Assembly: GCA_034440635.1 (NCBI GenBank)
Contig: JAOTON010000900.1
Span: 1-64,000 of the forward strand
Length of the DNA: 64,000 bases
Source of the DNA: Lepas anatifera
Taxonomy: Eukaryota; Arthropoda; Thecostraca; Lepadidae
Direction: 5' to 3'
The notes below the pieces were generated by a model. It saw nothing but the letters and a program-made list of their open reading frames with translations, was not told where the DNA came from and made no database searches. The translations under genes and the position numbers were made by a program. Positions 21,300 to 64,000 of the stretch are shown here, piece after piece (position 1 is the first letter of the stretch; each line of letters opens with the position of its first letter).

Positions 21300-21816
21300 T
21301 TCTTATGCCAAACCGAAGAGAATGTATCTGGGGCTTGGTTTCCCTATTTTAAGGACATGCCGAAATGTTAAGGGTGCGCAGTCGGATACTATTTGCCGTT
21401 TTCACCGGTTTGCGGAAGGTACTCTACCACATGCTAGACCTGTATGCCCTAAGTAACTGTATTTTTTGCCAACATATTTATTCTCGGCCAATGAAAACGT
21501 GGCGTTAGCTGTCGGGGTCTCCTTTACGTGCCAAAATCCTGCCGGTGGAAGGCTTTGAAGTCCAGAATATTGGATTATCAACATAAAATGGCAGAAATAT
21601 GATCTGATTGCTAGGAAGTCTCTACTATTGTAGTTAAATATAAGCTTCTGTTAACCTTCGATTCTATGCTGAATGGCAGTCAACATTTTTCAAATGCTGA
21701 CTGCACATTTCATTAGAGCCCAGCTGCAGATTAATCATGCTTATACAATATTTGATGGATTTCGCAGTGCTTCACCGAGGGGCATGATTATAAGTCGATA
21801 AGTATTGTCATTTCTC

Positions 21817-23846: not shown

Positions 23847-27739
<3,893 letters not shown>

Positions 27740-32969: not shown

Positions 32970-35900
32970 GCTGGTAAGAAATATATTCTGTTGGTGGGAT
33001 ATGGTGTATTTTCCCACTTTTGATGTTCCAAGGGGGATAGATTTGTCGGTATTTCGTGATCTGAACTTCTTGGTGTTTTTTATACATAATGATGAAGAAA
33101 AAATTATTCGTGGAATTTAACGTAAAAAAATCGGGACGTGTATTGGATATTGTTTGGCTTATTTACTTAGATCCAAGGTAGAAAGTTGGGTTAAATCTAT
33201 GGTTATGCAATCACACTGCTGTGATGTTTGTCACAACTGCACAGTACTACACAATATATCAACTTATAAAAGATGGATAAGGTCTGGTGTGTTGTGGTGT
33301 GGTCTGGTGTGTTGTGGTGTGGTCTGGTGTGGTGTGCTTTGTTGTGTGGTGTGGTGTGGTGTGTTGTGTGGTGTGGTGTGTCGTGTGGTGTGGCGTGGCG
33401 TGGTGTGTGGTCTGGTATGGTGTGCTGTGGTGAGCTCTGGTGTGTTGTGTGGTATGATGTGGTGTGCTTTGGTGTGGTCTGGTGTGCTGTGGTGTGGTCT
33501 GGTGTGCTGTGGTGTAGTGTGGTGTGCTGTGGTGAGGTGTGCTGGAGCCCACCTCTGAGCCTGCTGCCGCTGTACCAGGCCACGTCTGCGAGCGGAAACA
33601 CCTGGAGACCACCGGCTGCTGTGATCCGGAGGCAGCCAGCACGCGGCGCTACCTCTGCGAGTCGTGCTCCCAGGAGGGCTGCTGCAGCGTCTACGAACAC
33701 TGCATCTCCTGCTGTCTGGACCCCGACAAGGTCAGACCAGTCCGGGGAGGTCGGCGCGAAGGGCTGTCACGAGACGTAATTATTTTTGTCATATATTGTA
33801 GGGTGGATTATGCGCAGAGAAATGCGTCATGCCCTTCTCTGTCGTCAGCTGTGTTCCATGAAAAATACGAAAATGTTGTTAAAGAAATGCATAGTGGATC
33901 ATTATTTGAACAAAATCCGTCGCAGTCTAGGTCTAAAGTAAAGCAGAGTCCAAAAGAGTCTACTAAGAAAAACAGACAGTGTTTGCATATGCGTGAGCCA
34001 GCATGTCTGTGTTGGTCATGTGCCGTTATATTGATACTTTGTGTATGATTTCTGTATTTCAACCTCTTAAACAGCAAAAACGAAGTTCAAGTTCTGCTAG
34101 GCTGCGCTCTTCGAGGCTCCAAACTTTCACTTTTCCGCGGGTCCGGTCGTAGCGCCGCCTTTCGTCAAGCTGTGCAACTATGCATGGCTGTGGCAGACAA
34201 CATTTCCGTTCAAAAATAAGTTCGAGCACGAGGGACTGAAAGGGAGGAGGCAAAGGCACGGCTGTTCGTTCTCAGCCGTCAGACTATCCTCTGGGCCAGT
34301 TTAAGTGGAGCAGCGCGGGACCATTCTGTGAGCTGATCCCGATGCGAGACGGTAGACTCGACAAGTGAGAAATTCGGGGACCTTAAGTGGTTTTCGCTAT
34401 CATTGCACTAAAATGCAACAGAAATCATTGCTGAAGCATAGCTTTAGCGAGGCCTACGATAATATTTATGACCAGGGCTGCGCTACGAAGTCGAAAGTGT
34501 TGACCGGGTCGGAGTCGATGAAATTCAGCCAGCTTCGACTCCAGCCGGGAGTCGAGGTCCAAACTTGCCACGGGTGATCATGATGTTCCCCAGCCATGAC
34601 AGAGCCGGGCATGAATGGCGCATGATTCTAGAGGATGCAGCACTAATTTTAGCCTCTCCATTACATTTGTTTGGACTCCGATGCGTTCGAACAGGCCCCA
34701 ATCGTTCCTAGCTCACGTCAGCACTGGGTTCTACCAGAGTCGACAACGACTATTTTTGGCTGACTGCGTAACAGAAATTGAGGCGTGGTTTCTGATCCAA
34801 GTTATTCCAGGAAGTGATTTTCAAACAATGCGGATGACTGAATTCACCCACGTTTTGGGCGATTTACATCTTTTGTGTTTTGCTAGCAATGGAGGGAAAG
34901 TGCGAGGCCCACACACATTTTGAAGACGGTGTCGATGGATAACGTGCGCCTCAATGGAAATGCACTGGAGTCCAATGAAACAATTCACTGCTTCTTGTAG
35001 GGCAGTGGTGTTAAATCAGTGAGTCAGGACCTAATATGGGTAACGAAGCCCTTGCGTGGGGGGTTAGGCAGACCTGTGAATTTGAACCGCGAATGTTAAG
35101 AATAGTAGATTTGATGCTAGCAATTGTTTATTTGTTTATTAGTGCTATATGAGCAACAGGGTCATACCCCAATAAGAGCTCAAGTCAGGAATCATGAAAA
35201 ATTGCCACCGTTTCAAGCCCAACAGATTCATGGCACTGTTTTTTAAAGAAAGTTTTCGGGACCTGAATACATTTTGAATGCCAGAGATATTGCCGCGAAG
35301 AAAGTTTCAGCTGTCGGGTGTGTTGCTCTGGATGCAAATTTTGAAGAAAAAAACGGTGTTTTTGGAAATATTTTTAACGGTTGTCAATAAAACATGCCGT
35401 GAGGGTTAGGAACCACTGTTTTAGGGGAAATAGAAAAAAAGGTTTATTTCTTTTTTTGTTCGAAATGTACTCAGGTTGAAAATATTTGTTTACACATGTG
35501 CACTTTAAGAACAAGCGTTCGCTGGATTCTTCATTTACCATCGCTGACGAAGATAGTTGCATGACGTTCGAAAGCTTCGAAAAAGGAAAGAGATTTCACA
35601 TTTCCGCCAGATACACTGAAAGGAGAATCTGGCCGCAATTGAGAATTGAAGAGCCGCGTGCTACAGAGGTTCAGCTTGATTTGACAGTGTGCCTTCACTA
35701 CTGTGGCAGATGGGTTGTAAGGTGTTGCAGTTTGAGTCAGAGTCGGGAGTAGCAGCTTCGAGTCAGCTGGCAGCTCAAACCGTTCAGGATCGTGGGGAAA
35801 AGTCGACTTGTGTATAATGTAGAAGGGAGAGACAAATCATTTTTTTAATAGTTTTTAGAGACAAATCAAATAGAGACAAATCATTTTTAATCAACATTTT

Positions 35901-43457: not shown

Positions 43458-43629
43458 ATGTCTGACGACGAGGACTGTGTGCCAGAGCTGGTTCCAGCAG
43501 TGTATGCACCGATTCCAGTTCTAATAATCACTGGATGCTTGGGGGCTGGTAAAACTACGCTGCTGAACTATATTCTAACAGAACAGCACAACAAGAGGAT
43601 TGCTGTCATTCTTAATGAATTTGGAGAAG
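43458..43629 (+). CDS. ZNG1: ZNG1 exon 1 (coding part)
   Basis: 57 codons plus one base from ATG 43458 (A at -3) to AAG|GTAATT. Contains PELVP and the P-loop. Confidence 0.95.
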
Positions 43630-46600
43630 GTAATTTACCATCTTTTGCCTGCTCACCGCCTGCTTTGCATGTGTTGATCAAATTATGAGTCAAATTCATG
43701 TATGTGATGTAATTATTTATCAAGCCTAGGCTAAGTTGCATGCTTTCTTCCCTTCAGATATCTTAGGAAAGCCTGGCAGGGTTGAAGAAGTTAATAATGC
43801 TGGTTTTGCCCAGTCTTATTGAGCCGATGTGGTGATCGGATGAACTCAACCTGTTAGGGCCTGGCCTGTTATTTTCAAGTACACAGGTCAAGATTCCTTT
43901 TTATTACATTGACCTGTGTTTTTAAAATGTGCCTACACCCCTGTTACTCACATGCTATTCTCTTTTCAATTCTTTAAGCATTTTCTGGCTCAGTTTTATA
44001 ACTATTGCAGAAGGTACACATTTTGTCTTGTTTGCTCTGGAATTGCTCAGCTTATATTGTGTGCTCATTACTTTCAAATTTCCTTTGGGAAATGAGCAAG
44101 TGGGCTCTGATGTGACTTGATATATTACAACATTATACTGTTGCCTTGAAGCTAACCAGTTTTCAGTGCACTTTCATGTTGGAGGGTAAAATGGTGTAGC
44201 AAGTTATGTATATGGGTCATCCCATGCCAACTCAACCAATGGTTACACAGCATGCCCTCAGATCACTATGAAATTAGGTGTTTAGGGGTCTTCATAGCCT
44301 AGAATCCGAATTCTCTGTTGAAACAGCCGCTGCACGCTTAATTCGTAGCAACAGTGACATGAAATTGTGATGTCATTGCATGTTTTGGAACATTTAAAAC
44401 CTTGTATCTCAAAAAGTTACAAAGATATTTGAAATCAGTCAAAAGTTTTAGAAGAAGGACTGTTAATGAATAAAATTGTTAGTAAAATTTTTTGAATATT
44501 TTTTTTACTTATAAAAATTGTGAACAAAAAATATAAATACAAAATATAAAGCGTGAGGTCTTCAATTTTCTTGAAGTTAATTTATATGAAATCTGCAAAT
44601 ATTCTTACCCGGGAACCGTCTAAAAAACATTTGGTATCCGATAGCAGCATATTGTAAAAGCTCACGTTCTTCACGGCCCTCACGCCAAACGAGCCCCGGA
44701 GCCGCCTCGGCGCCGGAGGGTAGGGTGTAGGGACAGGACACGACAGATCAAGTTCATCCATTGATGGATACAAAAAGATGGATTTATGCACAGAGCGTTA
44801 AGAAATTGTGAACATTGATTGTTTATATATAGACATTTGCAGGGGTGTAGCCAGAATTTCGCTCAGGGAGGGGTGGCACGCCGAAAAGGCCCCCTGCGAC
44901 AGCACCAAAAGGGCCCTGGTGGGTAAAAAGGGCTCTGCTTGTTACAGAATACAGTGCTGAAGAGGAATTAAGAGGGCCCTGTCTGGTATGAAATTTCAAA
45001 TCTGGCCACAGAGCATAGTGCGGGTGAGCCATGCTACGCGCGGCCCATTTCCTCAGGGGGCCCTTCAGGCCTTCAAGGGGTGAAGGCCTGAAGGGCCTTC
45101 AAGGGGTGGGGGCGGCTGTCCCTGCCGCCCCCTTTGGCTATGCCCCTGGACATTCACTTCATCTACGTCTCCGAGTGCGACATACCAAAGTGGAAATCCG
45201 GGCCCGTTCGGTCAGCTGCGATAACACGCTAAAATCACCTAGTGAGAAATATAACGGTGGGAATGGTGGGTTTTATTTCGAAGTACATATTTGACGCATT
45301 CATGGAATAAGAAGGAAGGGTAACACGACATGTGTTACTATCAAAGCACTTTTAAATTTTCTTTGCAGCGAATGCGAAAGCTTTAAAAGTGAATGGAAAA
45401 CAGATAGGGTACCAAACTTATTCATTCACATTGGCTTACCTATACTTTTCGTCTAATGTAAGAGTTAAGTAAAATCTGAAACTGCTTTCTTATAGCTGCT
45501 GTCACGCAGACATGGAAAACGAAAACTGAAATTAATTATTGGTGTCTCAATTTTCTGTCATTCTTGGTTTACTGCATTGACAAATATTTATGTTTCTCCT
45601 TTACGGATCTTGTATGTACAGTTCAATACGTTAGCTGCCTGCCGTCATGCTTTAAAATATTGTACTCTGTTTAAAGCAGTACTCGTGGCGACAAAAATTT
45701 TACTGTATTTTTATAACTGTTTGCTTATTGTGGCCTCCCCTGAAAACTGTTGCTTTGTTGGGAGAACGGGAAACTGAGGGCGTGAGTTGTGGCAGGAAGC
45801 CTAACCGTAGCCTATAAAAGCTGCGATGGGATGCATTTGTTTACTTAATTTATCCACGATAATGAAAGGCGAGATAGGTCGAGGAGGTAACTTTATTTGA
45901 CACTTAATATTAATACCAAGTGTTCATACGGCCATTTCATTTAATCTCTTTTAGCCAGTGGCTTCGCTTTTGGAAGGGGTAGGGACCGGACCCCACTGTT
46001 TTGAGGAAATGAACGGCCTTTCACTATTAGCATAAAACCAATAAAACTAATTGTTAAAGGCAGGTTTTAGCCTTTAAATGTGATCTTAACGCTGTGAAAT
46101 CCCCTAAATATCATCTGCCCTTCTGTTGAATACAAATATGAAAAAGAGGGTTCCTGTGCTCCCTAGAAATACGTGAAGACGTTCTTCACTTTGGTAGTGT
46201 ATAAAGTAACATTGCAACATATGACTTCTTTGTCTGCCGCCACCAAATGGAGCAGGGAAGCACACAGGAAAACTTTAAATGATGTTTTAATTTTGAAACA
46301 TTTTCTCTCAGCCTCCTCAAAATTGAGAAGCCATGAGACGGCAAAACATATTGATTGCAATCCCAAACTGCGCAGACATTTCATCCTCCCCACCCGTCCC
46401 GGCTGTGCTGGGCCGGCCGATCACCGGGCATCGCAGCAGACAGCCGTCGGGCACGCCCGCCAGTGCCTTTCATTGTGGGCAGTGGGCTTATTACATTCGA
46501 GTGAGTCTAGCTACTGGGCTTATATCTCCTTTTGTCAGAAACTGTACTTTCTATGTGACCTGATGGGACTCCACGTAACGAGCACAGCCGGAGACCGTAC

Positions 46601-49600
46601 CGGAGCTGGCTCGGGCGCGTTTTAGTGCGGCTGACCGAACCCACTAAGCGAGGTCATCATAGCAAAAGCCTTACTACAGTGTGAAGTGTCGTTTTTTCTA
46701 GCGCAGCTGACCGAACTGAGCCCAGCAGAACTAAAGAAGAGGTTCCACAAGGTCCAAAACATAAAAGGCATCAAGGGTTTCCACTGTTTTAGGCCAGTAG
46801 ACTGCTGAACAGTGGACGTCTACGCAACGTCTGCAATCACTTTAACCCGGAGACTTCAAACCGTGTGATGAAGTAACACACACATGAGATAATGCTACCG
46901 TCAGAGCATGTCTGTGCGGCGCCGACCGCAACATGACAATGTTTTTTTAGTCCATACAGAACTGAAGTGTTGTTTCAATATAGCCGTTATAATTCAGTTA
47001 ATTTTTTAAACATTTCTCAGCAATAAATTCAGCGCGAAGGTCTCGTATAATAAAAAAGAAAGTGTTTGCTTTGTGTCGTAACGACTGACAAGGTAATTTA
47101 ATACAAAAGTTATAAGCACCATTAGGATCCTCTCGCGAAGCACAAAATAATAACGTACCGTATTATCTAGTGAGATTAAAACACGAAACGGTCTTTGATT
47201 TCTTATGTCAGGACAAAATTATTATAGCTGATAATGCCTACAATTGATACTGCAGAGGCATAGGCAACTCAAAAACGATGACGTCAAAATAAGCGTTCTA
47301 TCATCATTGTGAGGGAAGTTAGCAAATATAAACCAGTTTCTCCCAATGCGTTCCCAATCGAGAGCTTAGGACCCTAGACAGACCTCAGGTCATTGATATC
47401 AGAAATCCCGTTACGACACATTGTTGTACTCGGTGGCCTTACTTTCTGAGACGAATGTCAGATTAATAGAGTAAGTCTTTTCTCACCGCATCAGCTAAAA
47501 AAAATTTGGCGGTCTCTCGGCCTGGACTGGTGACCTGACGTGATATTGCCGGGCCCAAAGATTGTGTCAGAAGCTACAATAATGACCACGTAGCACGTAC
47601 ACTGGCGGACGCAGAGGGGGGGGCAAGGGGCAATGGCTGCTCCCTGAATATTTTCTTAAACACTTAAATTTCAGGGAAATCAAAGTCCTCGCTGTTTGAA
47701 ATTGTAAAATTTATATTTTTATTTCAATTTTTTCTATGCATTTTCCAAATTTTCAGAAATTATTTGTGGCAATCATTGGTATCCCCGAAGAATCCTCTCC
47801 CTAAAGACGTTAATCGATTTCAAATATCTTTGCAACTTTTTGAGGTACAAAGCTTTGAATTTTACCAATCACGGAGTGACGTTACAATGTGACGTCACTG
47901 TTGCAACGAAACTAAAACCTGGTGGTCTATTTTTTTTAAAATTTTGTCCAAGTTGTCCCAAGTTCGACTGTTGGAGTCAGAGTCTTACTAAAGTCATCAA
48001 GGGACTTGTCATGGAGACGCCGACCCCACCACCCGAACAAGCAACTCCCACAATGAAGGGTTAATTTAGAAGCCAAAGTTTAACGTCCCACAAAGCACAG
48101 GGACGGCCGCCCCGCTCAGGTCACCCTCTCACCAGTCAGTTGCCAGCCGACCTGTACGTCGGATAAACTATTGAGCGCCGGAGCGTCTCAGGGGAATCGA
48201 TCCCAAGCCTGGACATGTATTGCCACTGCATGCTTCGGAGCAGCGGGCCGGAGCCCAACACTCTACCAACTGAGCTACCGGGGCGGCGTCTACCTTCATA
48301 TTATTTCGACCACATACTTGGATTTTAGACTATGAAGAACCCCTACACCCCTCATTTCATAGAGATCTGACGGGGTACCGTGTAAAATCGCGCTTTTACT
48401 GGTTGAGTTGGCATAGAACGACCCATATGCATTTGATGCCTTCATATTTTTGCTTTAATTGGTTGTTCATTTTGGATCAACCTCATTTTTTCTGACGTAT
48501 CCTCCCATGAATTTTGTTGTGCCACTGTTGGAGCATGTAGCATGTAGCAAAATTGGTTTTGTGTATGGTTAATGTGTGCAGCTACCTGCATTTCATTTTT
48601 GGTTACTGCATGTTTCTTTTCTTTTCAATTTTTGTGTTTATCATATTCAGTTTTGTCCTTTTTTATGACAATCTGTTCTTATGTTTTTAAATGACAAAAT
48701 GATAAATATTAAATCACATTAAAACCTTATCTTACTGTCTATGTACATTTATATACTTATTTTTTGTTTTCTTATCAACTTGACTCAGAAGCCTTTCTGT
48801 GATGAATTTTTAATTGAATGATTTTTTTCAGGAAGTGCTATGGAAAAAAGTCTTTCAATAGGTGAACAAGGCCAACAATATGAGGAGTGGCTTGAACTGA
48901 GGAATGGATGTCTCTGCTGCTCTGTCAAGTAAGGTGAAATCTGCTGTTGAAGCTGCTGTTTTGTGCTGTCAATTGTTTTCTATGGGTGAAACTTGGCATT
49001 AGTAATCACACAAAATTGAAAGAATAAGAATGAAGTCTTTGGCATCTCATTGGTCAATGACATTTAGGTGAAGATCACAATACCTGTAGTTAAGTGCTGA
49101 TCACCAGGCTGATTAAATAAGCATGGTGTCTCTTATGTCATGAATTTTAGCTGTACATTTAGCATGTTTTGGCAAGGCTGTAATTTGCTTTTTTGGAGAT
49201 TTGATCTTGAGAACAACTATTTCAATAAACAAATTGTTCTCATGTTCATTGAGGAACCCTGTGTTTTCATTCAATCAGAGCTTTGCCATGATTTTATGGT
49301 TATTTGGGCATAATAACTGCATTGGGATCCCTTACCCAGTTTGTTTTCTGGCAGGGACAATGGTGTGAAGGCAATCGAGCTACTGATGCAGAAGCGAGGT
49401 CGCTTTGACTACATCCTGCTGGAGACCACAGGTCTCGCCGATCCTGGTGTGTACGGGGAGTCAGGCTCCCACAGCTGCCTCAGTCAGAGTGGTAACATGG
49501 TCAAGGTGGTGCTGAACCCAGTTGGCAAGGTAACCTGTATTCTGCATTCCTTTTGTTGTGGTAAATGTTCACAATGCTTTTCATTGTCATGCTAGAATTT

Positions 49601-52600
49601 GGTTGTTTCGTGATGCTTGCTCTTTCTTCTTCACAATTGCGGTTAAAAAATATATGCAGCTTTTTGTTGGGCTGTAATTTTTTGTGTCCATGGTTAATAC
49701 AAGTAGCTGCCGGCGTTGCAGGTCCTGTGGCCTCCATTTTCTGGCTAGACAAGGAGCTGGGCAGTGACGTTTACCTGGACGGTAAGTTTGTTTTTTATCT
49801 CACTCTTTAGTCAGTTTCTCATCTCGTATTTTTACACGCTCCTTTTAGTTTATGGTTCTGCCGCTAATATGACGAGGGTTAAGATTTTCTACCATTATTC
49901 CTGGGCAAACTTCAACTTTGCTCATGGATTCGGCTTCTTAGACTAGATTTGCGGATGTTTTTGGCGGACGACGTATAAAAAGAATAATTGTTTGGGTTTA
50001 ACGACGCACTGTCTGCCAAGGTTAAACGGCGTAGTCGACTCCATCCTTTTGAAAGGGTTTTGGGGATCAGGTTCTTATTCAGAGAACCTGCGATGTTTCG
50101 AAACTGCGACGTGTGCCTCAAGGGGCAGGTATTCTACCTTTTCTACCCTATCCGCAAAGAAACTCGGATTCCATCTTCCTTTTTGTAGTCTTGTTTTGCA
50201 ATACATAGTTATTGCTTTATTTGCCTTGTTATGGACTTGATGCGTTTCGATGTTGGCTTTGTTTCCACAGTGTAAGGGAATTTTATCGTGATGACATTGA
50301 GCAGGAGTGGTTGAAGTGTTTGAGCGGTGCAGTACATCGGGGCTCGACGTGTGGACTCGAGACCGGTCGTTGGGGCTGCCCACAAATTAACTAAAGTATA
50401 TTTCTGTGATGTGCCCCCCGATGTAACGCGTTTTGACGCCCATATGTAACGTTAGATAATGCTGTGACTGACCTTACCACATCCCTCCCCCTTACGTTAC
50501 GTAATTTATCACCCTTTATCAGTCAATTCAGCCGCGCCTGACGCCAACGCGAACCACTCGTAACCTAACGCTAACCCGAACCACTCATAGCCTGACGCTA
50601 ACCCGAACCACTCGTAACCTGACGCTAACCCGAACCACTCGTAACCTGACGCTAACCTGAACCACTCATTTGCAGGTATCGTGACCGTCGCAGATGCCAA
50701 AAACATAATGCAGGTGAGGCCGCGCACCGACCTTCCTTCTTCTTGCTGTTTAGGAGCATCTGCTGGGACATTTCACGAAAATTGACTCGCAGAGTGGGCA
50801 TTTAGGCACTCTTTGTGAAGAAAGTGTGCAGTACCAAATGTAGCTGTATGAGCTCCAAAAGTATGTTTTTGCAATAATTAAAATAGGAATGAAGGCCCAT
50901 TTTTGTGTTTTTATTCTCACACATGGCCACAGAAACTTGCTCATTTGAAAATTTTGTCTTGATTTTCGAATAGCTCACAAGAGTATTGGCTATCAGCGGA
51001 AATTACGAAGTGCTAGAACAAAGGAAGTATCTGAAAACCGCCGGCGCGGCGCCGCTCCACCCACTGACTTAGCGCGACTAACCGCTTGGGGGGCGACCTG
51101 GTTAGTGGTTATAATCACGTTAAAGCGTTTTACCCTCCCCCTAGATCCGCCTCTCGGCTACCGTAAAGGTTCTACCGCCGTGTTTTCAGTTGCCTGCTAA
51201 GTTTCTGGCCTTTAGACATTTTCTGTAATGTTTTACTGTGCTTCATTTAAAGGGAGTGTCCCACTTTTATAGTGGGCTTTGAACTGAGATAGCAGTTTTG
51301 TAGAGCGTGTTGAGAAACCACTATTTGCATATTTGGTTTCACCCAAAGCTCTCGGTATAAAATTTACGCCAGCTTTAAAGTTCAAAGTAAAGGTTTATAT
51401 TGGCTTATTTCAAACCCTGAAGGAATACCTTCCATATGGTTGCAGTAATCTGATTGGTCGTTAGCTCTTCGTCTCGCCCACGCGCTGAAAATACCATGCT
51501 AGCGAGTGGACCAGCATGCAACTGCCTGTCGACCGGCAACTTAGGCAGAAAGTTGTCCAGTTTAGAGCGTTATTGGGCCAAAATTAGTCCAATAACCGCA
51601 ATACACATCATTTCCTCTCTCCCCCATACTTGCCCAAACGAGTTTCAAATGTTTTTGTCAAAATCCAACTCTGAAATTGTTTCCTTACATCAGACATATG
51701 AATAATCTTTCCACCACTGAAACAAACTTGTCCGCCGTAGTGGCATCTGGCGTTCAGTTCCTGCACCAGTGCTTCTTGTATTGCATGCTATTTTCTCCGT
51801 GCGGAAATGCTCTGAATGGAGCTTTATAGCGAGTCTATGATCAACGTTTGGAATTTCACTGATTATCAGCAGCGTTATTTTGATGACGTCACATATTGTT
51901 AGAAAAGGGGATATGTTTAAGTTTTTAGCGTATGAAAGTGGAAAAAATGCTGTTCCCTGGGTTTCAGACCTCTCCTGTTCTTAAAATGTTCTTTTTAGGA
52001 TTTTCACAAAGTGGTCCACTACCTTTAATGCGGGTAAGCTAATAATGGGAAAAATGAACCAACACAGAAATTCACCATGCGCGAAAACCTGTGCGAAATA
52101 TCAAGCTCCAAACAATATTCAACGGATGGAAAAGTTTTTGTAGCACGTTTCCCAGTCCAAAACCGCAGATATTGACCCGCTACACGTTCGCCCATATCGC
52201 ACCACAAATAGAGGCGTGGTACTTGTCTCGTGTTGCCTAGTGCAGGGAGGAGGAACACATATCTGAAATGTACAAACTGGCCTATCTGGGTTGGATGAGA
52301 GTTCGGAGCAGCCGCCCTGCTGAGACGACGTGCCGTGCTGCCCCCCGGCGGGCGCCGCGACTGTAGTCACAGCGTGACTCAGCACCCGTCACATAGTGCC
52401 GTGACGGGGCGCCCTGCACTTCACTGTTCTCCCCTGTTGCCAAATCAAATAGGCGCGACCGTTCATCTCTGCGTGGTGTGTTTATCCTGCAGCTGCAATG
52501 TCGGCCGCGAGCAATATACGACGGCCGGGGATGGGGACCATCAACACTCACTGTTATAGTTTACGACGGTACCCGGCACTTACACGAGATTTTTACTACC

Positions 52601-55600
52601 TGAAAATTAAAACGCTCTCCGCGAGGTATTTAGTTGTTCCAGTATGATCAAACGGGGTTGAAATGTTTTCCGGACTTGTCTTCAGCTGTTCATGCTCCAA
52701 CAGTAAATGTGCTCGCTATAGAGGATAATTGAGAAAACCCCTGATTTTGAACTCACTGTCTGTGACAATTTTTCTCCTTGCGATGGTTATTACGCACACA
52801 CCCACTATGTTGATTTATTGAACTACCCAGCTATGTCTCACTGAGCCTTGCGGCTTTGTTCTGATTTGAGAGGCAATCGTTAGTGTTCTGGTCTTAGCAT
52901 GATAAAGCTAGTACAAAACACCATCAAGCTATTTGTTTGCGAGCAGCCTTGATTTTTAATCTCATTGTGAGTAGTTAAAGCCTCATTGGCAGCAACACTA
53001 CAGTTGGAGCTCTGTGTCGCTGTGCTGTTGCTTAAGCTATATCTGAAGTTACGTGAGCCGATGCCGATGTCGTCCTTGACTGATGTCGATTGTTGCAGGC
53101 TCTGGACGGTGCTGACGGCGGGAGGGCGAGCAACAGACTCCCGCCAGGTAAGCATCAGGTGGGTACACCCTGTCATATAGGCTCTGGATGGGGTGGGGAG
53201 GGCGAGCAACAGACACCCGCCAGGTAAGCATCAGGTGGGTACACCCTGTCATATAGGCTCTGGATGGGGTGGGGAGGGCGAGCAACAGACACCCGCCAGG
53301 TAAGCATCAGGTGGGTACACCCTGTCATATAGGCTCTGGATGGGGTGGGGAGGGCGAGCAAGACTCCCGCCAGGTAAGCATCAGGTGGGTACACCCTGAC
53401 TGTCATATAGGCTCTGGATGGGGTGGGGAGGGCGAGCAACAGACACCCGCCAGGTAAGCATCAGGTGGGTACATCCTGACTGTCATATAGGCTCTGGATG
53501 GGGTGGGGAGGGCGAGCTACAGACACCCGCCAGGTAAGCATCAGGTGGGTACATCCTGTCATATAGGCTCTGGATGGGGTGGGGAGGGCGAGCAACAGAC
53601 ACCCGCCAGGTAAGCATCAGGTGGGTACACCCTGTCATATAGGCTCTGGATGGAGTGGGGAGGGCGAGCAACAGACTCCCGCCAGGTAAGCATCAGGTGG
53701 GTACACCCTGTCATATAGGCTCTGGATGGGGTGGGGAGGGCGAGCAACAGACACCCGCCAGGTAAGCATCAGGTGGGTACACCCTGTCATATAGGCTCTG
53801 GATGGGGTGGGGAGGGCGAGCAACAGACACCCGCCAGGTAAGCATCAGGTGGGTACACCCTGTCATATAGGCTCTGGATGGGGTGGGGAGGGCGAGCAAC
53901 AGACTCCCGCCAGGTAAGCATCAGGTGGGTACACCCTGTCATATAGGCTCTGGATGGGGTGGGGAGGGCGAGCAACAGACCCCGCCAGGTAAGCATCAGG
54001 TGGGTACACCCTGTCATATAGGCTCTGGATGGGGTGGGGAGGGCGAGCAACAGACTCCCGCCAGGTAAGCATCAGGTGGGTACACCCTGTCATATAGGCT
54101 CTGGATGGGGTGGGGAGGGCGAGCAACAGACTCCCGCCAGGTAAGCATCAGGTGGGTACACCCTGTCATATAGGCTCTGGATGGGGTGGGGAGGGCGAGC
54201 AACAGACACCCGCCAGGTAAGCATCAGGTGGGTACATCCTGTCATATAGGCTCTGGATGGGGTGGGGAGGGCGAGCAACAGACACCCGCCAGGTAAGCAT
54301 CAGGTGGGTACACCCTGACTGTCATATAGGCTCTGGATGGGGTGGGGAGGGCGAGAAACAGACTCCCGCCAGGTAAGCATCAGGTGGGTACACCCTGACT
54401 GTCATATAGGCTCTGGATGGGGTGGGGAGGGCGAGCAACAGACTCCCGCCAGGTAAGCATCAGGTGGGTACATCCTGTCATATAGGCTCTGGATGGGGTG
54501 GGGAGGGCGAGCAACAGACACCCGCCAGGTAAGCATCAGGTGGGTACACCCTGTCATATAGGCTCTGGATGGGGTGGGGAGGGCGAGCAACAGACTCCCG
54601 CCAGGTAAGCATCAGGTGGGTACACCCTGTCATATAGGCTCTGGATGGAGTGGGGAGGGCGAGCAACAGACACCCGCCAGGTAAGCATCAGGTGGGTACA
54701 CCCTGTCATATAGGCTCTGGATGGGGTGGGGAGGGCGAGCAACAGACTCCCGCCAGGTAAGCATCAGGTGGGTACATCCTGTCATGTAGGCTCTGGATGG
54801 GGTGGGGAGGGCGAGCAACAGACTCCCGCCAGGTAAGCATCAGGTGGGTACACCCTGTCATATAGGCTCTGGATGGGGTGGGGAGGGCGAGCAACAGACA
54901 CCCGCCAGGTAAGCATCAGGTGGGTACACCCTGACTGTCATATAGGCTCTGGATGGGGTGGGGAGGGCGAGCAACAGACTCCCGCCAGGTAAGCATCAGG
55001 TGGGTACACCCTGTCATATAGGCTCTGGATGGGGTGGGGAGGGCGAGCAACAGACACCCGCCAGGTAAGCATCAGGTGGGTACACCCTGTCATATAGGCT
55101 CTGGATGGGGTGGGGAGGGCGAGCAACAGACTCCCGCCAGGTAAGCATCAGGTGGGTACATCCTGTCATATAGGCTCTGGATGGGGTGGGGAGGGCGAGC
55201 AACAGACACCCGCCAGGTAAGCATCAGGTGGGTACCCTGTCATATAGGCTCTGGATGGGGTGGGAGGGCGACACCGCCGGTATCGGTGGGTTGTTTGGCC
55301 TGGATGGGGTGGGGGGGCGGCCGACGCCGGTGATGGTGGCTGTCATATAGGCTCTGGATGGGGTGGGAGGGCGAGCAACAGACCCCGCCAGGTAAGCATC
55401 AGGTGGGTACATCCTGTCATATAGGCTCTGGATGGGGTGGGGAGGGCGAGCAACAGACACCCGCCAGGTAAGCATCAGGTGGGTACACCCTGACATATAG
55501 GCTCTGGATGGGGTGGGGAGGGCGAGCTACAGACACCCGCCAGGTAAGCATCAGGTGGGTACACCCTGACTGTCATGTAGGCTCTGGATGGGGTGGGGAG

Positions 55601-58600
55601 GGTGAGCAACAGACACCCGCCAGGTAAGCATCAGGTGGGTACACCCTGTCATATAGGCTCTGGATGGGGTGGGGAGGGCGAGCTACAGACACCCGCCAGG
55701 TAAGCATCAGGTGGGTACACCCTGACTGTCATGTAGGCTCTGGATGGGGTGGGGAGGGTGAGCAACAGACACCCGCCAGGTAAGCATCAGGTGGGTACAC
55801 CCTGTCATATAGGCTCTGGATGGGGTGGGGAGGGCGAGCAACAGACTCCCGCCAGGTAAGCATCAGGTGGGTACATCCTGTCATATAGGCCCTGGATGGG
55901 GTGGGGAGGGCGAGCAACAGACTCCCGCCAGGTAAGCATCAGGTGGGTACACCCCTGTCATATAGGCTCTGGATGGGGTGGGGAGGGCGAGCTACAGACA
56001 CCCGCCAGGTAAGCATCAGGTGGGTACACCCTGACTGTCATATAGGCCCTGGATGGGGTGGGGAGGGCGAGCAACAGACTCCCGCCAGGTAAGCATCAGG
56101 TGGGTACACCCTGACTGACATATAGGCTCTGGATGGGGTGGGGAGGGCGAGCAACAGACTCCCGCCAGGTAAGCATCAGGTGGGTACACCCTGACTGACA
56201 TATAGGCCCTGGATGGGGTGGGGAGGGCGAGCAACAGACAACAGCCAGGTAAGCATCAGGTGGGTACACCCTGACTGTCATATAGGCTCTGGATGGGGTG
56301 GGGAGGGCGAGCTACAGACTCCCGCCAGGTAAGCATCAGGTGGGTACACCCTGTCATATAGGCTCTGGATGGGGTGGGGAGGGTGAGCTACAGACACCCG
56401 CCAGGTAAGCATCAGGTGGGTACACCCTGACTGACATATAGGCTCTGGATGGGGTGGGGAGGGCGAGCTACAGACTCCCGCCAGGTAAGCATCAGGTGGG
56501 TACATCCTGTCATATAGGCTCTGGATGGGGTGGGGAGGGTGAGCTACAGACACCCGCCAGGTAAGCATCAGGTGGGTACACCCTGACTCTCATATAGGCT
56601 CTGGATGGGGTGGGGAGGGCGAGCAACAGACTCCCGCCAGGTAAGCATCAGGTGGGTACACCCTGTCATATAGGCTCTGGATGGGGTGGGGAGGGCGAGC
56701 TACAGACACCCGCCAGGTAAGCATCAGGTGGGTACACCCTGTCATATAGGCTCTGGATGGGGTGGGGAGGGCGAGCAACAGACACCCGCCAGGTAAGCAT
56801 CAGGTGGGTACACACTGTCATATAGGCTCTGGATGGGGTGGGGAGGGCGAGCAACAGACACCCGCCAGGTAAGCATCAGGTGGGTACACCCTGACTGTCA
56901 TATAGGCTCTGGATGGGGTGGGGAGGGCGAGCTACAGACACCCGCCAGGTAAGCATCAGGTGGGTACACCCTGTCATATAGGCTCTGGATGGGGTGGGGA
57001 GGGCGAACAACAGACTCCCGCCAGGTAAGCATCAGGTGGGTACACCCTGTCATATAGGCTCTGGATGGGGTGGGGAGGGCGAGCAACAGACACCCGCCAG
57101 GTAAGCATCAGGTGGGTACACCCTGTCATATAGGCTCTGGATGGGGTGGGGAGGGCGAGCAACAGACACCCGCCAGGTAAGCATCAGGTGGGTACACACT
57201 GTCATATAGGCTCTGGATGGGGTGGGGAGGGCGAGCAACAGACACCCGCCAGGTAAGCATCAGGTGGGTACACCCTGACTGTCATATAGGCTCTGGATGG
57301 GGTGGGGAGGGCGAGCTACAGACACCCGCCAGGTAAGCATCAGGTGGGTACACCCTGTCATATAGGCTCTGGATGGGGTGGGGAGGGCGAACAACAGACT
57401 CCCGCCAGGTAAGCATCAGGTGGGTACACCCTGACTGTCACATAGGCTCTGGATGGGGTGGGGAGGGCGAGCTACAGACACCCGCCAGGTAAGCATCAGG
57501 TGGGTACACCCTGTCATATAGGCTCTGGATGGGGTGGGGAGGGCGAGCTACAGACACCCGCCAGGTAAGCATCAGGTGGGTACACCCTGACTGTCACATA
57601 GGCTCTGGATGGGGTGGGGAGGGCGAGCTACAGACACCCGCCAGGTAAGCATCAGGTGGGTACACACTGTCATATAGGCTCTGGATGGGGTGGGGAGGGC
57701 GAGCAACAGACACCCGCCAGGTAAGCATCAGGTGGGTACACCCTGACTGTCATATAGGCTCTGGATGGGGTGGGGAGGGCGAGCTACAGACACCCGCCAG
57801 GTAAGCATCAGGTGGGTACACCCTGTCATATAGGCTCTGGATGGGGTGGGGAGGGCGAGCTACAGACACCCGCCAGGTAAGCATCAGGTGGGTACACCCT
57901 GTCATATAGGCTCTGGATGGGGTGGGGAGGGTGAGCTACAGACACCCGCCAGGTAAGCATCAGGTGGGTACACCCTGTCATATAAGCTCTGGATGGGGTG
58001 GGGAGGGCGAACAACAGACTCCCGCCAGGTAAGCATCAGGTGGGTACACCCTGACTGTCATATAGGCTCTGGATGGGGTGGGGAGGGCGAGCAACAGACT
58101 CCCGCCAGGTAAGCATCAGGTGGGTACACCCTGTCATATAAGCTCTGGATGGGGTGGGGAGGGCGAACAACAGACTCCCGCCAGGTAAGCATCAGGTGGG
58201 TACACCCTGACTGTCATATAGGCTCTGGATGGGGTGGGGAGGGTGAGCAACAGACTCCCGCCAGGTAAGCATCAGGTGGGTACACCCTGTCATATAAGCT
58301 CTGGATGGGGTGGGGAGGGCGAGCTACAGACTCCCGCCAGGTAAGCATCAGGTGGGTACACCCTGACTGTCACATAGGCTCTGGATGGGGTGGGGAGGGC
58401 GAGCAACAGACACCCGCCAGGTAAGCATCAGGTGGGTACACCCTGACTGTCACATAGGCTCTGGATGGGGTGGGGAGGGCGAGCAACAGACACCCGCCAG
58501 GTAAGCATCAGGTGGGTACACCCTGTCATATAGGCTCTGGATGGGGTGGGGAGGGCGAGCAATAGACTCCCGCCAGGTAAGCATCAGGTGGGTACACCCT

Positions 58601-61600
58601 GACTGTCACACAGGCTCTGGATGGGGTGGGGAGGGCGAGCAACAGACACCCGCCAGGTAAGCATCAGGTGGGTACACCCTGTCATATAGGCCCTGGATGG
58701 GGTGGGGAGGGCGAGCAACAGACACCCGCCAGGTAAGCATCAGGTGGGTACACCCTGTCATATAAGCTCTGGATGGGGTGGGGAGGGCGAACAACAGACT
58801 CCCGCCAGGTAAGCATCAGGTGGGTACACCCTGACTGTCATATAGGCTCTGGATGGGGTGGGGAGGGCGAGCAACAGACACCCGCCAGGTAAGCATCAGG
58901 TGGGTACACCCTGTCATATAGGCTCTGGATGGGGTGGGGAGGGCGAGCAACAGACTCCCGCCAGGTAAGCATCAGGTGGGTACACCCTGACATATAGGCT
59001 CTGGATGGGGTGGGGAGGGCGAGCTACAGACTCCCGCCAGGTAAGCATCAGGTGGGTACACCCTGTCATATAGGCTCTGGATGGGGTGGGGAGGGCGAGC
59101 AACAGACACCCGCCAGGTAAGCATCAGGTGGGTACACCCTGTCATATAGGCTCTGGATGGGGTGGGGAGGGCGAACAACAGACTCCCGCCAGGTAAGCAT
59201 CAGGTGGGTACACCCTGACTGTCATATAGGCTCTGGATGGGGTGGGGAGGGCGAGCAACAGACTCCCGCCAGGTAAGCATCAGGTGGGTACACCCTGTCA
59301 TATAGGCTCTGGATGGGGTGGGGAGGGCGAGCAACAGACACCCGCCAGGTAAGCATCAGGTGGGTACACCCTGACTGGTATATAGGCTCTGGATGGGGTG
59401 GGGAGGGCGAGCAACAGACTCCCGCCAGGTAAGCATCAGGTGGGTACACCCTGTCATATAGGCTCTGGATGGGGTGGGGAGGGCGAGCAACAGACTCCCG
59501 CCAGGTAAGCATCAGGTGGGTACACCCTGTCATATAGGCTCTGGATGGGGTGGGGAGGGTGAGCTACAGACACCCGCCAGGTAAGCATCAGGTGGGTACA
59601 CCCTGTCATATAGGCTCTGGATGGGGTGGGGAGGGCGAGCAACAGACTCCCGCCAGGTAAGCATCAGGTGGGTACACCCTGTCATATAGGCTCTGGATGG
59701 GGTGGGGAGGGTGAGCTACAGACACCCGCCAGGTAAGCATCAGGTGGGTACACCCTGTCATATAAGCTCTGGATGGGGTGGGGAGGGCGAACAACAGACT
59801 CCCGCCAGGTAAGCATCAGGTGGGTACACCCTGTCATATAGGCTCTGGATGGGGTGGGGAGGGCGAGCAACAGACTCCCGCCAGGTAAGCATCAGGTGGG
59901 TACACCCTGTCATATAGGCTCTGGATGGGGTGGGGAGGGCGAGCTACAGACACCCGCCAGGTAAGCATCAGGTGGGTACACCCTGACTGTCATATAGGCT
60001 CTGGATGGGGTGGGGAGGGCGAGCAACAGACTCCCGCCAGGTAAGCATCAGGTGGGTACACCCTGTCATATAAGCTCTGGATGGGGTGGGGAGGGCGAGC
60101 AACAGACTCCCGCCAGGTAAGCATCAGGTGGGTACATCCTGTCATATAGGCTCTGGATGGGGTGGGGAGGGCGAGCAACAGACACCCGCCAGGTAAGCAT
60201 CAGGTGGGTACACCCTGTCATATAAGCTCTGGATGGGGTGGGGAGGGCGAACAACAGACTCCCGCCAGGTAAGCATCAGGTGGGTACACCCTGACTGTCA
60301 TATAGGCTCTGGATGGGGTGGGGAGGGCGAGCAACAGACTCCCGCCAGGTAAGCATCAGGTGGGTACACCCTGTCATATAGGCCCTGGATGGGGTGGGGA
60401 GGGCGAGCTACAGACACCCGCCAGGTAAGCATCAGGTGGGTACACCCTGTCATATAGGCTCTGGATGGGGTGGGGAGGGCGAGCTACAGACTCCCGCCAG
60501 GTAAGCATCAGGTGGGTACACCCTGTCATATAGGCTCTGGATGGGGTGGGGAGGGCGAGCTACAGACTCCCGCCAGGTAAGCATCAGGTGGGTACACCCT
60601 GACTGTCATATAGGCTCTGGATGGGGTGGGGAGGGCGAGCAACGGACACCCGCCAGGTAAGCATCAGGTGGGTACACCCTGACTGTCATATAGGCTCTGG
60701 ATGGGGTGGGGAGGGCGAGCAACGGACACCCGCCAGGTAAGCATCAGGTGGGTACACCCTGTCATATAGGCTCTGGATGGGGTGGGGAGGGCGAGCTACA
60801 GACTCCCGCCAGGTAAGCATCAGGTGGGTACACCCTGACTGTCATATAGGCTCTGGATGGGGTGGGGAGGGCGAGCTACAGACTCCCGCCAGGTAAGCAT
60901 CAGGTGGGTACACCCTGACTGTCATATAGGCTCTGGATGGGGTGGGGAGGGCGAGCAACGGACACCCGCCAGGTAAGCATCAGGTGGGTACACCCTGACT
61001 GTCATATAGGCTCTGGATGGGGTGGGGAGGGCGAGCAACAGACACCCGCCAGGTAAGCATCAGGTGGGTACACCCTGTCATATAGGCTCTGGATGGGGTG
61101 GGGAGGGCGAGAAACAGACACCCGCCAGGTAAGCATCAGGTGGGTACACCCCGACTGTCGTATAGGCTCTGGATGGGGTGGGGAGGGCGAGCAACAGACT
61201 CCCGCCAGGTAAGCATCAGGTGGGTACACCCTGACTGTCATATAGGCTCTGGATGGGGTGGGGAGGGCGAGCAACAGACTCCCGCCAGGTAAGCATCAGG
61301 TGGGTACACCCCGACTGTCGTATAGGCTCTGGATGGGGTGGGGAGGGCGAGAAACAGACTCCCGCCAGGTAAGCATCAGGTGGGTACACCCTGTCATATA
61401 GGCTCTGGATGGGGTGGGGAGGGCGAGCTACAGACTCCCGCCAGGTAAGCATCAGGTGGGTACTCCCTGTCATATAGGCTCTGGATGGGGTGGGGAGGGC
61501 GAGCTACAGACTCCCGCCAGGTAAGCATCAGGTGGGTACACCCTGTCATATAGGCTCTGGATGGGGTGGGGAGGGCGAGCAAGACTCCCGCCAGGTAAGC

Positions 61601-64000
61601 ATCAGGTGGGTACACACTGTCATATAGGCTCTGGATGGGGTGGGGAGGGCGAGCTACAGACTCCCGCCAGGTAAGCATCAGGTGGGTACACCCTGACTGT
61701 CATATAGGCTCTGGATGGGGTGGGGAGGGCGAGCAACAGACTCCCGCCAGGTAAGCATCAGGTGGGTACACCCTGACTGTCATATAGGCTCTGGATGGGG
61801 TGGGGAGGGCGAGCAACAGACTCCCGCCAGGTAAGCATCAGGTGGGTACACCCCGACTGTCGTATAGGCTCTGGATGGGGTGGGGAGGGCGAGCAACAGA
61901 CTCCCGCCAGGTAAGCATCAGGTGGGTACACCCCGACTGTCGTATAGGCTCTGGATGGGGTGGGGAGGGCGAGAAACAGACTCCCGCCAGGTAAGCATCA
62001 GGTGGGTACACCCTGACTAGTATAGAGGTGTGCAACGTCACAGTTGGTACAACCTGCAAGCTGTTTTTTATATATATCGACTGCCCAGTTTTGTCGGAGA
62101 ATCATTGTTCCAGCCCCAGATCTGGTGATTTCTGGTTTGTTCTGATGCGTGGTCGGTAGCTCTGCGTCTGGCCCGGCCCTCGGCGGCTGATTTGATTTCG
62201 TCGTCTGTTGACGGCCGAGCACCGCCAGCAGCGGATTAGCCCCGCCCGGCGGCGCTGATTTCGTTGTGCCCGGCCGCGCGCGTCTGATCCGTTTTGGCAA
62301 ATTGCCAGATTAATACGCCGCTCTGATGTGATTTGTCAGCGGTTTATGGCGGCTGCTTTCGGCCAATCATATACGCTGCAGGGAGATGTAGTCAGCAACC
62401 GTCGTTAGAAAATCATGGTTTTATTATTGCGGAGGGGTAGGTTTGTTATTTCCTTTTTCTTTTGCGGAAACCACGTAATGCATGTGACTTGTCAACCCCG
62501 CGGTCGTATCTGGAGGATGGGCGAAACAATGTAAAATAAAGATGGGGCCAAACTTTAGTCTTTCGTTTTGTATGGTGAGTGAAACCATTTTTGTCACCTT
62601 GTGCCTCGGAGAAATAAAATAGTTTTTTTCCATTTCCAAACTTCTCACGCTGAGCTGAAAACCCTTCTTTCTTTTCCTCAAGCAACCCGTTTTCTGCGGC
62701 TCCAATATTTCGGCTCTTTTTCCAACGCGAAAAGCTTATGACAATTTTAAACTTCCGTGTCTTTGTCAGTAATCAATTTGCCTCTCAAAATTTTGAAAGG
62801 AAACAGTTTTGTGGAGCTGTCAGAATTTTGAAGATTTACGATGAAATCGGAGCGAGTTTGTTTTTCACCCCTAACACGGGCAGTGAGGAGAAGTCTGGTG
62901 TCAACGCTGGGAACAGGAGTTCTAAGGTGCCCTCCCCAGATCTAAAGAACCAAGAGGGTTAGAAAAACGCCGGTTTGGGCAGTTCGTGGAGGCGATGGTG
63001 ATCTAAATTATAGCTTTTATTTACCTGGGTCAATATCTTCAGGGTCAAACGAGGTGCTGGAAACCTGTTGGGAAATGCTGTTATTATGCGAAAAAAACGG
63101 AATACACTGAGAGCGCACCAAGGCCATATAGGGAAGGCCCCCTCACAATGTTCTCTGAAAGCTTGAGGTCAAGGTCACTGACCTATGACGTAACAATGTA
63201 ACATATTCCCGATAATGTACAACATAACCGGCACTACAGCAGCCTTTGTGCGGGAAATGAAGGTTTAACCCCAAGAAAAGACATTTGACCTTGATTTTGA
63301 CATTGAGAAGTCTTCACTATGAAGTCATTGTGGCACAACACACGTCATACTAAATAATGTCATCTGACCTAAACATTGACCTGTGACCTTTGATCTTGAC
63401 TTGCATGTTGGGTAACCTCCACATATAATCCGGATTATATGACGTTATTACGTCACCAATCGGTCTACAGTGTAAGCTAATTAGTGCGATCGTGCGATTG
63501 CAAAGGTCTCAATATAAGTCGGACTTTGAAAACCTATAAGTCAAAACAATTTTGACCGATTTTTTTAATTCTTCGCCAATCGACGTGCTCATGAATTCTC
63601 TCAAATGTGGCCAATTAACGTTTTTCGGCTGCAAACGATTATCCGCCCACCTCGGAAAGATAGATGTTGAAGGGGAGAGTGGGGCACCTTAGGGCCACCT
63701 CCACTGCGTATGTTGATAATTTCATAGGTACTAAGCGATTATTATGCGACAAATGAACTTGTTCTTACTCCCTTTCTCAGTTGCTATGGCGACAGTGAAC
63801 GTTTGGCCTTGTCTCGTCTTGTCAATATTATCATTTTTCCGATATCTGCCCTCGTTGCGCTGCCTGTGCCCGCTGCACTGGCTTCGCCCGCCTGGTGTGT
63901 ATGTTGTGGGAGTTCTCACTGACTTTGCCCGCCAGCTGTGTATGTTGTGAGAGTTCTCACTGGCTTTGCCCGCCGGGTGTGTATGTTGTGGGAGTTATCA
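43458..64000 (+). CDS. ZNG1: ZNG1 / CBWD zinc-regulated GTPase metallochaperone, 5' part
   Basis: Firm exons 43458-43629, 48832-48928, 49355-49446, 49722-49781 and 50676-50713 encode 153 residues in phase; a sixth candidate exon is at 53099. ZNG1 is a COG0523 G3E GTPase that delivers zinc to methionine aminopeptidase 1. Seen here: the N-terminal METAP1-docking motif as DCVPELVP, Walker [10 protein letters not shown] (residues 26-34), [17 protein letters not shown], the zinc-binding CxCC motif C84-L-C86-C87, the Walker B-like segment [20 protein letters not shown], and [18 protein letters not shown]. The NKxD guanine motif and the C-terminal CobW domain are not in the window, so the gene continues to the right. 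The N-terminus is about 20 residues shorter than in vertebrates. Introns are large (5.2 kb for the first) and repeat-rich. Confidence 0.93.
44561..47640 (+). other. interior of the 4.2 kb element, no gene
   Basis: No transposase or other conserved frame. A local duplication of AAGGCCTGAAGGGCCTTCAAGG-type sequence occurs around 45060-45105. Confidence 0.5.
48075..48295 (-). repeat. tRNA-derived SINE
   Basis: The minus strand begins CCCCGGTAGCTCAGTTGGTA (A box) and then GGGATCGATTCCCC (B box), with an over-long anticodon/variable region. A ~110-bp body follows, ending near AAGTTTAACGTCCCACAAAG. It lies inside the right arm of the 4.2 kb inverted pair, so it inserted later. Confidence 0.7.
48832..48928 (+). 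CDS. ZNG1: ZNG1 exon 2
   Basis: The acceptor is GATTTTTTTCAG and the donor CAA|GTAAGG. Encodes [19 protein letters not shown] to GCLCCSV with the zinc-binding CxCC. Confidence 0.95.
49355..49446 (+). CDS. ZNG1: ZNG1 exon 3
   Basis: The acceptor is TTTTCTGGCAG and the donor CTG|GTGTGT. Encodes [17 protein letters not shown] to TTGLADP. Confidence 0.95.
49722..49781 (+). CDS. ZNG1: ZNG1 exon 4
   Basis: The acceptor is CGGCGTTGCAG and the donor ACG|GTAAGT. Encodes [19 protein letters not shown]. Confidence 0.95.
50534..50675 (+). repeat. 27-bp minisatellite ending in the ZNG1 exon 5 acceptor
   Basis: Units start GAACCACTC at 50551, 50578, 50605, 50632 and 50659. Each full unit contains GCTAACC, a good branch-point sequence. 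The last copy is cut after GAACCACTCATTTGCAG, which is the exon 5 acceptor. A degenerate partial unit precedes 50551. Confidence 0.95.
50676..50713 (+). CDS. ZNG1: ZNG1 exon 5
   Basis: A 38-nt exon encoding [12 protein letters not shown] after the split Gly. The acceptor CTCATTTGCAG is the last partial unit of a 27-bp tandem array; the donor is CAG|GTGAGG. Confidence 0.9.
50714..51246 (+). other. ZNG1 intron 5, first part
   Basis: No repeat or gene recognised. A CCTCCCCCTAGATCCGCCT fragment near 51134 resembles a hAT-MITE end. Confidence 0.4.
51247..52025 (+). repeat. ~0.78 kb interspersed repeat in ZNG1 intron 5
   Basis: Second copy of the repeat found in ARF6 intron 2 at 24966-25750, same orientation, with substitutions and small indels throughout. 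Confidence 0.8.
52026..53098 (+). other. ZNG1 intron 5, last part
   Basis: No recognised gene or repeat up to the acceptor at 53098. Confidence 0.5.
53099..53147 (+). CDS. ZNG1: candidate ZNG1 exon 6 / founder of the 76-bp array
   Basis: Preceded by a good acceptor (GATTGTTGCAG) and followed by CAG|GTAAGC. It is 49 nt long. Exon 5 ends in phase 0, so the expected reading is [16 protein letters not shown]. In human ZNG1 the segment after the KYGLK that matches KNIMQ is 17 residues ending in NEATRQ, and here 16 codons plus one base are available. The position and size therefore fit, but NEATRQ is not readable. A net loss of two bases near AACAGACTCCCGCCAG would explain this. It could be a consensus error, a decayed exon, or not an exon. 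Everything downstream to 62020 is tandem copies of it. Confidence 0.45.
53099..62020 (+). repeat. 8.9 kb minisatellite of 76/80-bp units carrying splice sites
   Basis: Roughly 115 units (estimated from length). Each reads GCTCTGGATGGGGTGGGGAG, GGCGAGCAACAGACACCCGC, CAG|GTAAGCATCAGGTGGGT, then ACACCCTG(ACT)GTCATATAG. The four-base ACTG-type indel makes units 76 or 80 bp. In almost every unit ATATAG precedes a ~43-nt block that ends in the consensus donor CAG|GTAAGC. Binary variants (AGCAAC/AGCTAC, ACCCGCC/TCCCGCC, CACCC/CATCC, GGCTCT/GGCCCT, AGGGCG/AGGGTG) mark individual units. The donor core is essentially invariant. The unit length is not a multiple of three, so the short open frames within it are not genes. 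Confidence 0.97.
62021..62870. other. no gene recognised
   Basis: Sequence after the array. I looked for the next ZNG1 exon (NKxD-containing) and did not find it here, nor further to 64000. Confidence 0.5.
62871..63716 (+). mobile_element. TTAA-type MITE, family 2, old copy
   Basis: Collinear with 39315-40225: AAGAGGGTTAGAAAAACGCC, GGTCAATATCTTCA, CGTCACCA(A/C)TCGGTCT, CCAATCGACG and CAAATGTGGCC. The boundary tetramers have decayed to CTAA (62871) and TTGA (63713-63716). It retains AGGTCA half-sites. Confidence 0.75.
63885..64000 (+). repeat. 41-bp minisatellite at the right edge
   Basis: Units CTTTGCCCGCC, then TGTGTATGTTGTGGGAGTTC, then TCACTGG recur about every 41 bp from 63892. Nearly three copies are visible before the window ends. 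Confidence 0.85.

Follow-up and report, generated by a model that had tools for sequence, protein, structure and literature searches.

How is one 5′ splice site chosen when more than a hundred copies of it lie side by side? Choice among identical neighbouring 5′ splice sites is usually studied with a few engineered copies, whereas 114 natural copies follow a single acceptor in a 64,000-nucleotide stretch of Lepas anatifera DNA (GenBank assembly GCA_034440635.1, contig JAOTON010000900.1, positions 1 to 64,000 of the forward strand; hereafter the window). They belong to an 8.9-kb minisatellite in the gene for ZNG1, a CobW GTPase, and the array seems to be an exceptionally large example of a known curiosity, the mirage. 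The explanation that we favour, with modest confidence, is a very large donor-type mirage in which the donor of the first unit is most likely used and the rest is removed with the intron. The same 64 kb hold an array in ARF6 with 11 copies of a 3′ splice site, where the true site is known from protein homology. Should RNA show exact use of one copy in the ZNG1 array, this would place strong limits on competition models; should it not, the array would be a source of new exons and introns.

A splice-donor minisatellite

The array and an irregular segment within it are placed as follows.

53099..62020, + strand: splice-donor minisatellite, 116 blocks of exon end, donor and intron start
55248..55350, + strand: two adjacent rearranged blocks (starts 55248 and 55297) without the donor

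Tandem Repeats Finder reported the array at 53120-62015 with a period of 76/156. Segmentation from 53099 divided it into 116 head-to-tail blocks, 67 of 76 bp, 39 of 80 bp and 10 of other lengths. The exact donor word CAGGTAAGC (CAG/GTAAGC, the slash marking the exon/intron junction) occurs 114 times on the + strand within the array, versus twice in the remainder of the 64 kb, which agrees with the figure of about 115 donors in a preliminary description of the locus. In 114 of the 116 blocks the word stands between an exon-like and an intron-like part, and the repeat unit does read as a copied exon end, donor and intron start, as had been proposed. The block ends in ATATAG in 95/116 cases, and the part of the unit that precedes the donor is 43 nt long in 108 of the 113 units counted, the last unit being omitted from length counts. 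The array, described earlier as repeating these three elements in nearly every 76/80-bp unit, is thereby confirmed.

The intron-like part, from the GT to the next unit, measures 33 nt in 71 and 37 nt in 40 of 113 stretches, 106 of which end in AG. Counted over the 115 unit joins, AG is present at 107, and ATATAA is found at seven. The 80-bp form corresponds to the 76-bp form with a four-base insertion, CTGA in 36 units and CCGA in four. Because of this insertion, 36/40 of the 37-nt gaps contain CTGAC, whose start in the consensus lies 15 nt ahead of the following block, and these 36 gaps also end in AG.

The 114 donor-bearing units comprise 57 distinct sequences. Variants are not clustered locally, since adjacent units resemble each other no more than they do in a random arrangement (509 of 2000 shuffles were as good). 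In the rearranged blocks at 55248-55350, GCCGGTATCGGTGGGT and GCCGGTGATGGTGG replace the core, and these may be older or recombined forms. The array has no coding read-through, with stops in all frames of both strands and a longest open run of 113 aa on the minus strand. On that strand the array carries no CAGGT[AG]AG donor. We found no four G-triplet runs with loops of 1-7 in the array, and neither Rfam families at the gathering score nor tRNAs in the window. The copy number is that of one assembled sequence, and array length probably varies between individuals.

An invariant core with two donor-like sites

In all 114 units CAG/GTAAGC is followed, 11 nt downstream, by another donor-like site, CAG/GTGGGT, which the preliminary description overlooked. 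Both sites fall within an invariant core, located in unit 1 at:

53143..53165, + strand: invariant 23-nt core spanning the two donor-like sites (GCCAG/GTAAGCATCAG/GTGGGTA), present 114 times in the array

It had been claimed that the donor core stays intact while other positions vary, and a per-position tabulation across units proves this right but understated. Consensus positions 39-61 (of 76 nt) show zero changes in 114/114 aligned units. Outside the core, 25 of the 76 consensus positions are variable, in the exon-like body and on the acceptor side (unit 1 not counted). The variation tables cover 114 of the 116 blocks, leaving out the two rearranged ones, and the event count covers 113, leaving out unit 1 as well. 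When equally many variable sites are placed at random, a circular invariant run of at least 23 arises in 0.04% of trials (P 0.0004), and the nine donor bases alone are spared with P 0.021, under a null that assumes an equal mutation rate at all sites. Such invariance does not show selection, because a young array undergoing homogenisation, or mutation at uneven rates, could yield the same pattern.

Both sites are predicted to pair strongly with U1. The computed pairing with the U1 5′ end is -12.8 kcal/mol for CAG/GTGGGT and -11.0 kcal/mol for CAG/GTAAGC. Only 1 of 3420 GT sites on the + strand outside the array is as strong as the former, and 10 of 3420 are as strong as the latter. For the seven ARF6 and ZNG1 donors that protein homology locates in the window, the values lie between -5.0 and -12.2 kcal/mol. 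The two donor-like sites resemble an 11-nt micro-duplication (CAGGTAAGCAT / CAGGTGGGTAC), and all four differences between its halves are transitions.

The host gene and the edge of the array

The part of the gene that precedes the array was traced by tblastn with a human ZNG1 sequence.

43458..43629, + strand: ZNG1 exon 1 (coding part) with the P-loop GCLGAGKT; E 6e-19, joined frame intact
48832..48928, + strand: ZNG1 exon 2 with the CLCC motif; E 7e-13, joined frame intact
49355..49446, + strand: ZNG1 exon 3; E 5e-12, joined frame intact
49722..49781, + strand: ZNG1 exon 4; E 4e-6, joined frame intact
50676..50713, + strand: ZNG1 exon 5, leaving phase 0; no tblastn match of its own, within the YjiA (query 18-151) and Pfam cobW (20-152) matches
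53099..53147 (to 53158 with the second donor), + strand: candidate ZNG1 exon 6, the exon-like part of unit 1; AG at 53097-53098, open in phase after exon 5

Exons 1-5 (43458-50713) lie on the same strand as the array and join to 459 nt, or 153 open codons, which match Pfam cobW (PF02492) with E 1.7e-40. With a CobW nucleotide-binding domain, a P-loop and a CxCC motif in a frame open across exons, the assignment of the host gene to ZNG1 holds.

The first unit differs from the rest of the array in several respects. Its block is 49 nt long to the first donor and 60 nt to the second, and it is open in phase 0 after exon 5. To keep the frame, the next ZNG1 exon would have to begin in phase 1 with CAG/GTAAGC and in phase 0 with CAG/GTGGGT. 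It is the most divergent of the aligned units, with 10 columns differing from the consensus, six of them due to one insertion; the other units differ in at most eight columns (median 2) and the last unit in five. Divergence of the edge copy is therefore seen at the 5′ edge, whereas the 3′ edge gives no clear picture. If splicing used the donor of unit 3, 4, 5 or 6, the exon would contain a stop codon; with the donor of unit 2 it would not. The array does start directly after an AG, at 53098, as described before, but to call this acceptor good was generous. On a rough matrix, which underlies all acceptor scores given here, it is a moderate one, ranking 431st of 3102 AGs, inside the range of the five homology-supported acceptors (61st-613th).

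Several observations weigh against an authentic coding boundary at this edge. The peptide of unit 1 bears no resemblance to the matching stretch of human ZNG1, and tblastn and an ungapped scan with the same protein located no later ZNG1 exon up to 64000. The AGs between later units outscore that of unit 1 (median 2.14 vs 0.07), and we therefore rejected the idea that later acceptors are plainly weaker than the first. We likewise rejected a unit that had also copied the upstream acceptor region: the region before unit 1 aligns to the unit tail no better than background (116 of 591 control AG sites are as good for the 80-bp form and 455 of 591 for the 76-bp form), which gives no indication of the acceptor having been copied along with the unit. 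The earlier suggestion that unit 1 is a real or former exon draws some support from its position as an odd edge copy behind an acceptor and from its open phase, but none from homology to human ZNG1. Given that lack of resemblance and of a later exon before the window end, we treat unit 1 as a candidate exon only.

Relation to known mirages

Tandem repeats that run across exon/intron boundaries have been described as mirages in the amphioxus Adh, troponin C, globin and PGBD5 genes, in the relevant parts of PMC3087553 and PMC3902484, the latter contributing the PGBD5 case and citing troponin C. According to these passages, both 5′ and 3′ boundaries are duplicated together with their AG/GT signals, and the repeats are said to leave splicing undisturbed and the mRNA normal (PMC3087553, PMC3902484). 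In the globin mirage, the boundaries of the cluster are described as escaping homogenisation, and mirages are put forward as raw material for new introns through tandem duplication of splice signals (PMC3087553). Judged by its repeat structure, the ZNG1 array fits the structural definition of a mirage, with its edge site as a candidate for an authentic one. The structural part of the earlier interpretation stands, its proposals of U1 sequestration, recursive splicing, mini-exons, circular RNAs or repression being conjectural, and what it missed is that mirages are an already described phenomenon.

The closest known systems are the amphioxus mirages (Adh3, troponin C, the globins BflGb6 and BflGb9, and PGBD5). 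In BflGb6 the edge copies are described as lying outside homogenisation (PMC3087553, PMC3902484), and here the most divergent unit is the first. For BflGb6, two haplotypes with 6 and 3 units of 150-160 bp are given, compared with 114 donor units and 8.9 kb here. Those on the PGBD5 mirage give 2 or 7 units of 60 bp and 3 or 6 units of 108 bp in two assemblies, and the units of the Adh3 mirage are given as 10-72 bp, while those of the ZNG1 array are mostly 76 or 80 bp. The mirages with a stated copy number are small; the present array moreover has two donor-like sites per unit and an invariant 23-nt core. Intron gain by internal tandem duplication of AG/GT, as outlined in PMC3087553, shares the duplication of splice signals inside a gene, but the ZNG1 copies sit in what reads as one intron and not in coding sequence. 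Human internal tandem repeats in segmental duplications are similar in that minisatellite expansion alters exon/intron structure, in some cases via cryptic splice sites (parts of PMC2812944). Their units, however, average 30 bp in 4 copies, and the passages concerned do not describe a splice signal in each of 100 or more units (PMC2812944). Among the open-licence matches listed, no title or abstract beginning named an array of this size or at this locus.

A model for the origin and splicing of the array

We propose a model for how the array may have arisen and how it may be spliced. A segment reaching from the 3′ end of a short ZNG1 exon across its donor and 33-37 nt into the following intron would have been duplicated in tandem, and unequal exchange or conversion would have expanded the duplicated unit to the 8.9-kb minisatellite with which the intron begins. 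The divergence of unit 1 fits an expected edge copy, in line with the account of the globin mirage boundaries (part of PMC3087553). The acceptor at 53098 and the nearest donor, that of unit 1, would define one short exon of 49 nt (CAG/GTAAGC) or 60 nt (CAG/GTGGGT). The remaining 113 donor copies would stay intronic, may briefly bind U1 and would depart with the lariat. Extra U1 on the downstream copies would probably be shed; surplus U1 is reportedly purged from alternative sites between complexes E and A. Sequestration of U1 on the scale of the cell is unlikely, because a single gene is concerned.

Alternative explanations

The array might be an ordinary intronic minisatellite in which donor-like words arose by chance, unit 1 is no exon and nothing is ever spliced. 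A candidate exon without homology to human ZNG1 and a first acceptor of only moderate rank would suit this explanation. Sixteen stop-free codons are probably common by chance, and homogenisation alone would spread donor words with the unit. We nevertheless consider an inert array rather unlikely: the two donor-like sites rank with the strongest U1 matches in the window, the edge falls on an AG with a block in the right open phase behind it, and another array, in ARF6, sits on a homology-supported junction. At the other extreme, selection or biased conversion might keep the double donor core so that U1 is recruited to a long intron, guarding against premature polyadenylation or tuning ZNG1 output. 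The invariance of the core in all 114 units, with the P values given above, is in favour of such a function, and the array contains neither AATAAA nor ATTAAA. Yet it is hard to see how selection would act on individual copies among 114, the null presumes equal mutation rates with the two coreless rearranged blocks omitted, and the title of Hodson 2012, cited in PMC8724738, has surplus U1 shed on the way from complex E to complex A; we therefore regard a functional U1-binding array as improbable. Slightly less remote, though still doubtful, is the broader proposal that the double donor core, with 228 predicted U1-binding sites, is actively kept identical and makes the intron a very dense natural platform for U1 recruitment with an influence on ZNG1 expression, within a window where other minisatellites copy splice signals too.

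The units might also be spliced, either as mini-exons or stepwise. If the 43-nt blocks were included singly or in chains, variable and mostly frame-shifted transcripts or circular RNAs would result. The parts for this are largely present: AG is kept at most joins and scores well, 108 of 113 units have the 43-nt block, and 36 of the 40 37-nt gaps combine CTGAC with a terminal AG. However, animal introns are usually longer than 33-37 nt, and splicing from one unit to the next is unlikely because most gaps are of just these lengths. The acceptor side varies, with ATATAA at seven joins, unlike the donor, and a 43-nt block breaks the frame. Published mirages, too, are said to yield normal mRNA in the parts of PMC3087553 and PMC3902484 concerned, and we hold a mini-exon array to be very unlikely. 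Recursive splicing, in which each CAG/GTAAGC would act as acceptor and donor so that the intron is removed in steps, has still less to recommend it and is highly improbable in our view. A recursive splice site consists of a strong polypyrimidine tract and CAG/GTAAG acting as a ratchet, and CTCCCGCCAG/GTAAGC does resemble the consensus of such a ratchet point. As an acceptor, however, the AG of the median CAG/GTAAGC site ranks only 502nd of 3102, and steps of 76-80 nt would lie far below the length of known recursive segments.

Other arrays near splice junctions in the window

Two further arrays of the window lie at splice junctions.

26060..26458, + strand: 35-bp acceptor array, taken as a comparison case; 11 full copies (CATTGAC...GGGCAG), the last being the ARF6 exon acceptor
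50537..50667, + strand: 27-bp array of 4.9 copies; its end lies 9 nt upstream of the first base of ZNG1 exon 5

The motif of the 35-bp array is 26 nt long and consists of a branch-point-like TTGAC, a pyrimidine stretch and CAG. The joined protein at this locus is ARF6 (best solved match, E 1e-94). In the ten other full copies the AG is followed by T and not by G; they carry further changes and score lower than the true acceptor. On this protein homology, which supports an authentic edge, the array is a predicted 3′-splice-site mirage with its last copy as the real acceptor. The 27-bp array repeats the branch-point-like motifs CTGAC/CTAAC (CTGACGCTAAC) and not the AG.

Two of 12 arrays lie at most 12 nt from one of the 12 listed junctions (P 0.006 on random placement), and the ZNG1 donor array is not among the two. 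This recurrence of minisatellites at splice junctions speaks for the mirage model. The 12 arrays were drawn from 41 Tandem Repeats Finder rows; rows with short periods, overlapping ones and several with two to three copies of 20-25 bp were excluded, although one of the last kind (42619) was retained.

A 41-bp array at 63876-64000 follows the ZNG1 array and runs off the window; its consensus contains CCGCCAGGTGTGT, which is like the donor word. We rejected it as a donor array, as the donor-like word is not kept in the three visible copies. At 33281-33541, about 50 GGTGT units immediately precede or overlap the beginning of an open frame that encodes a SPRING1-like domain (PF10218, E 5e-17). On the minus strand, a large open frame at 19275-21302 encodes a SAM domain together with an acidic region of internal repeats (117-bp repeats, 20341-20819).
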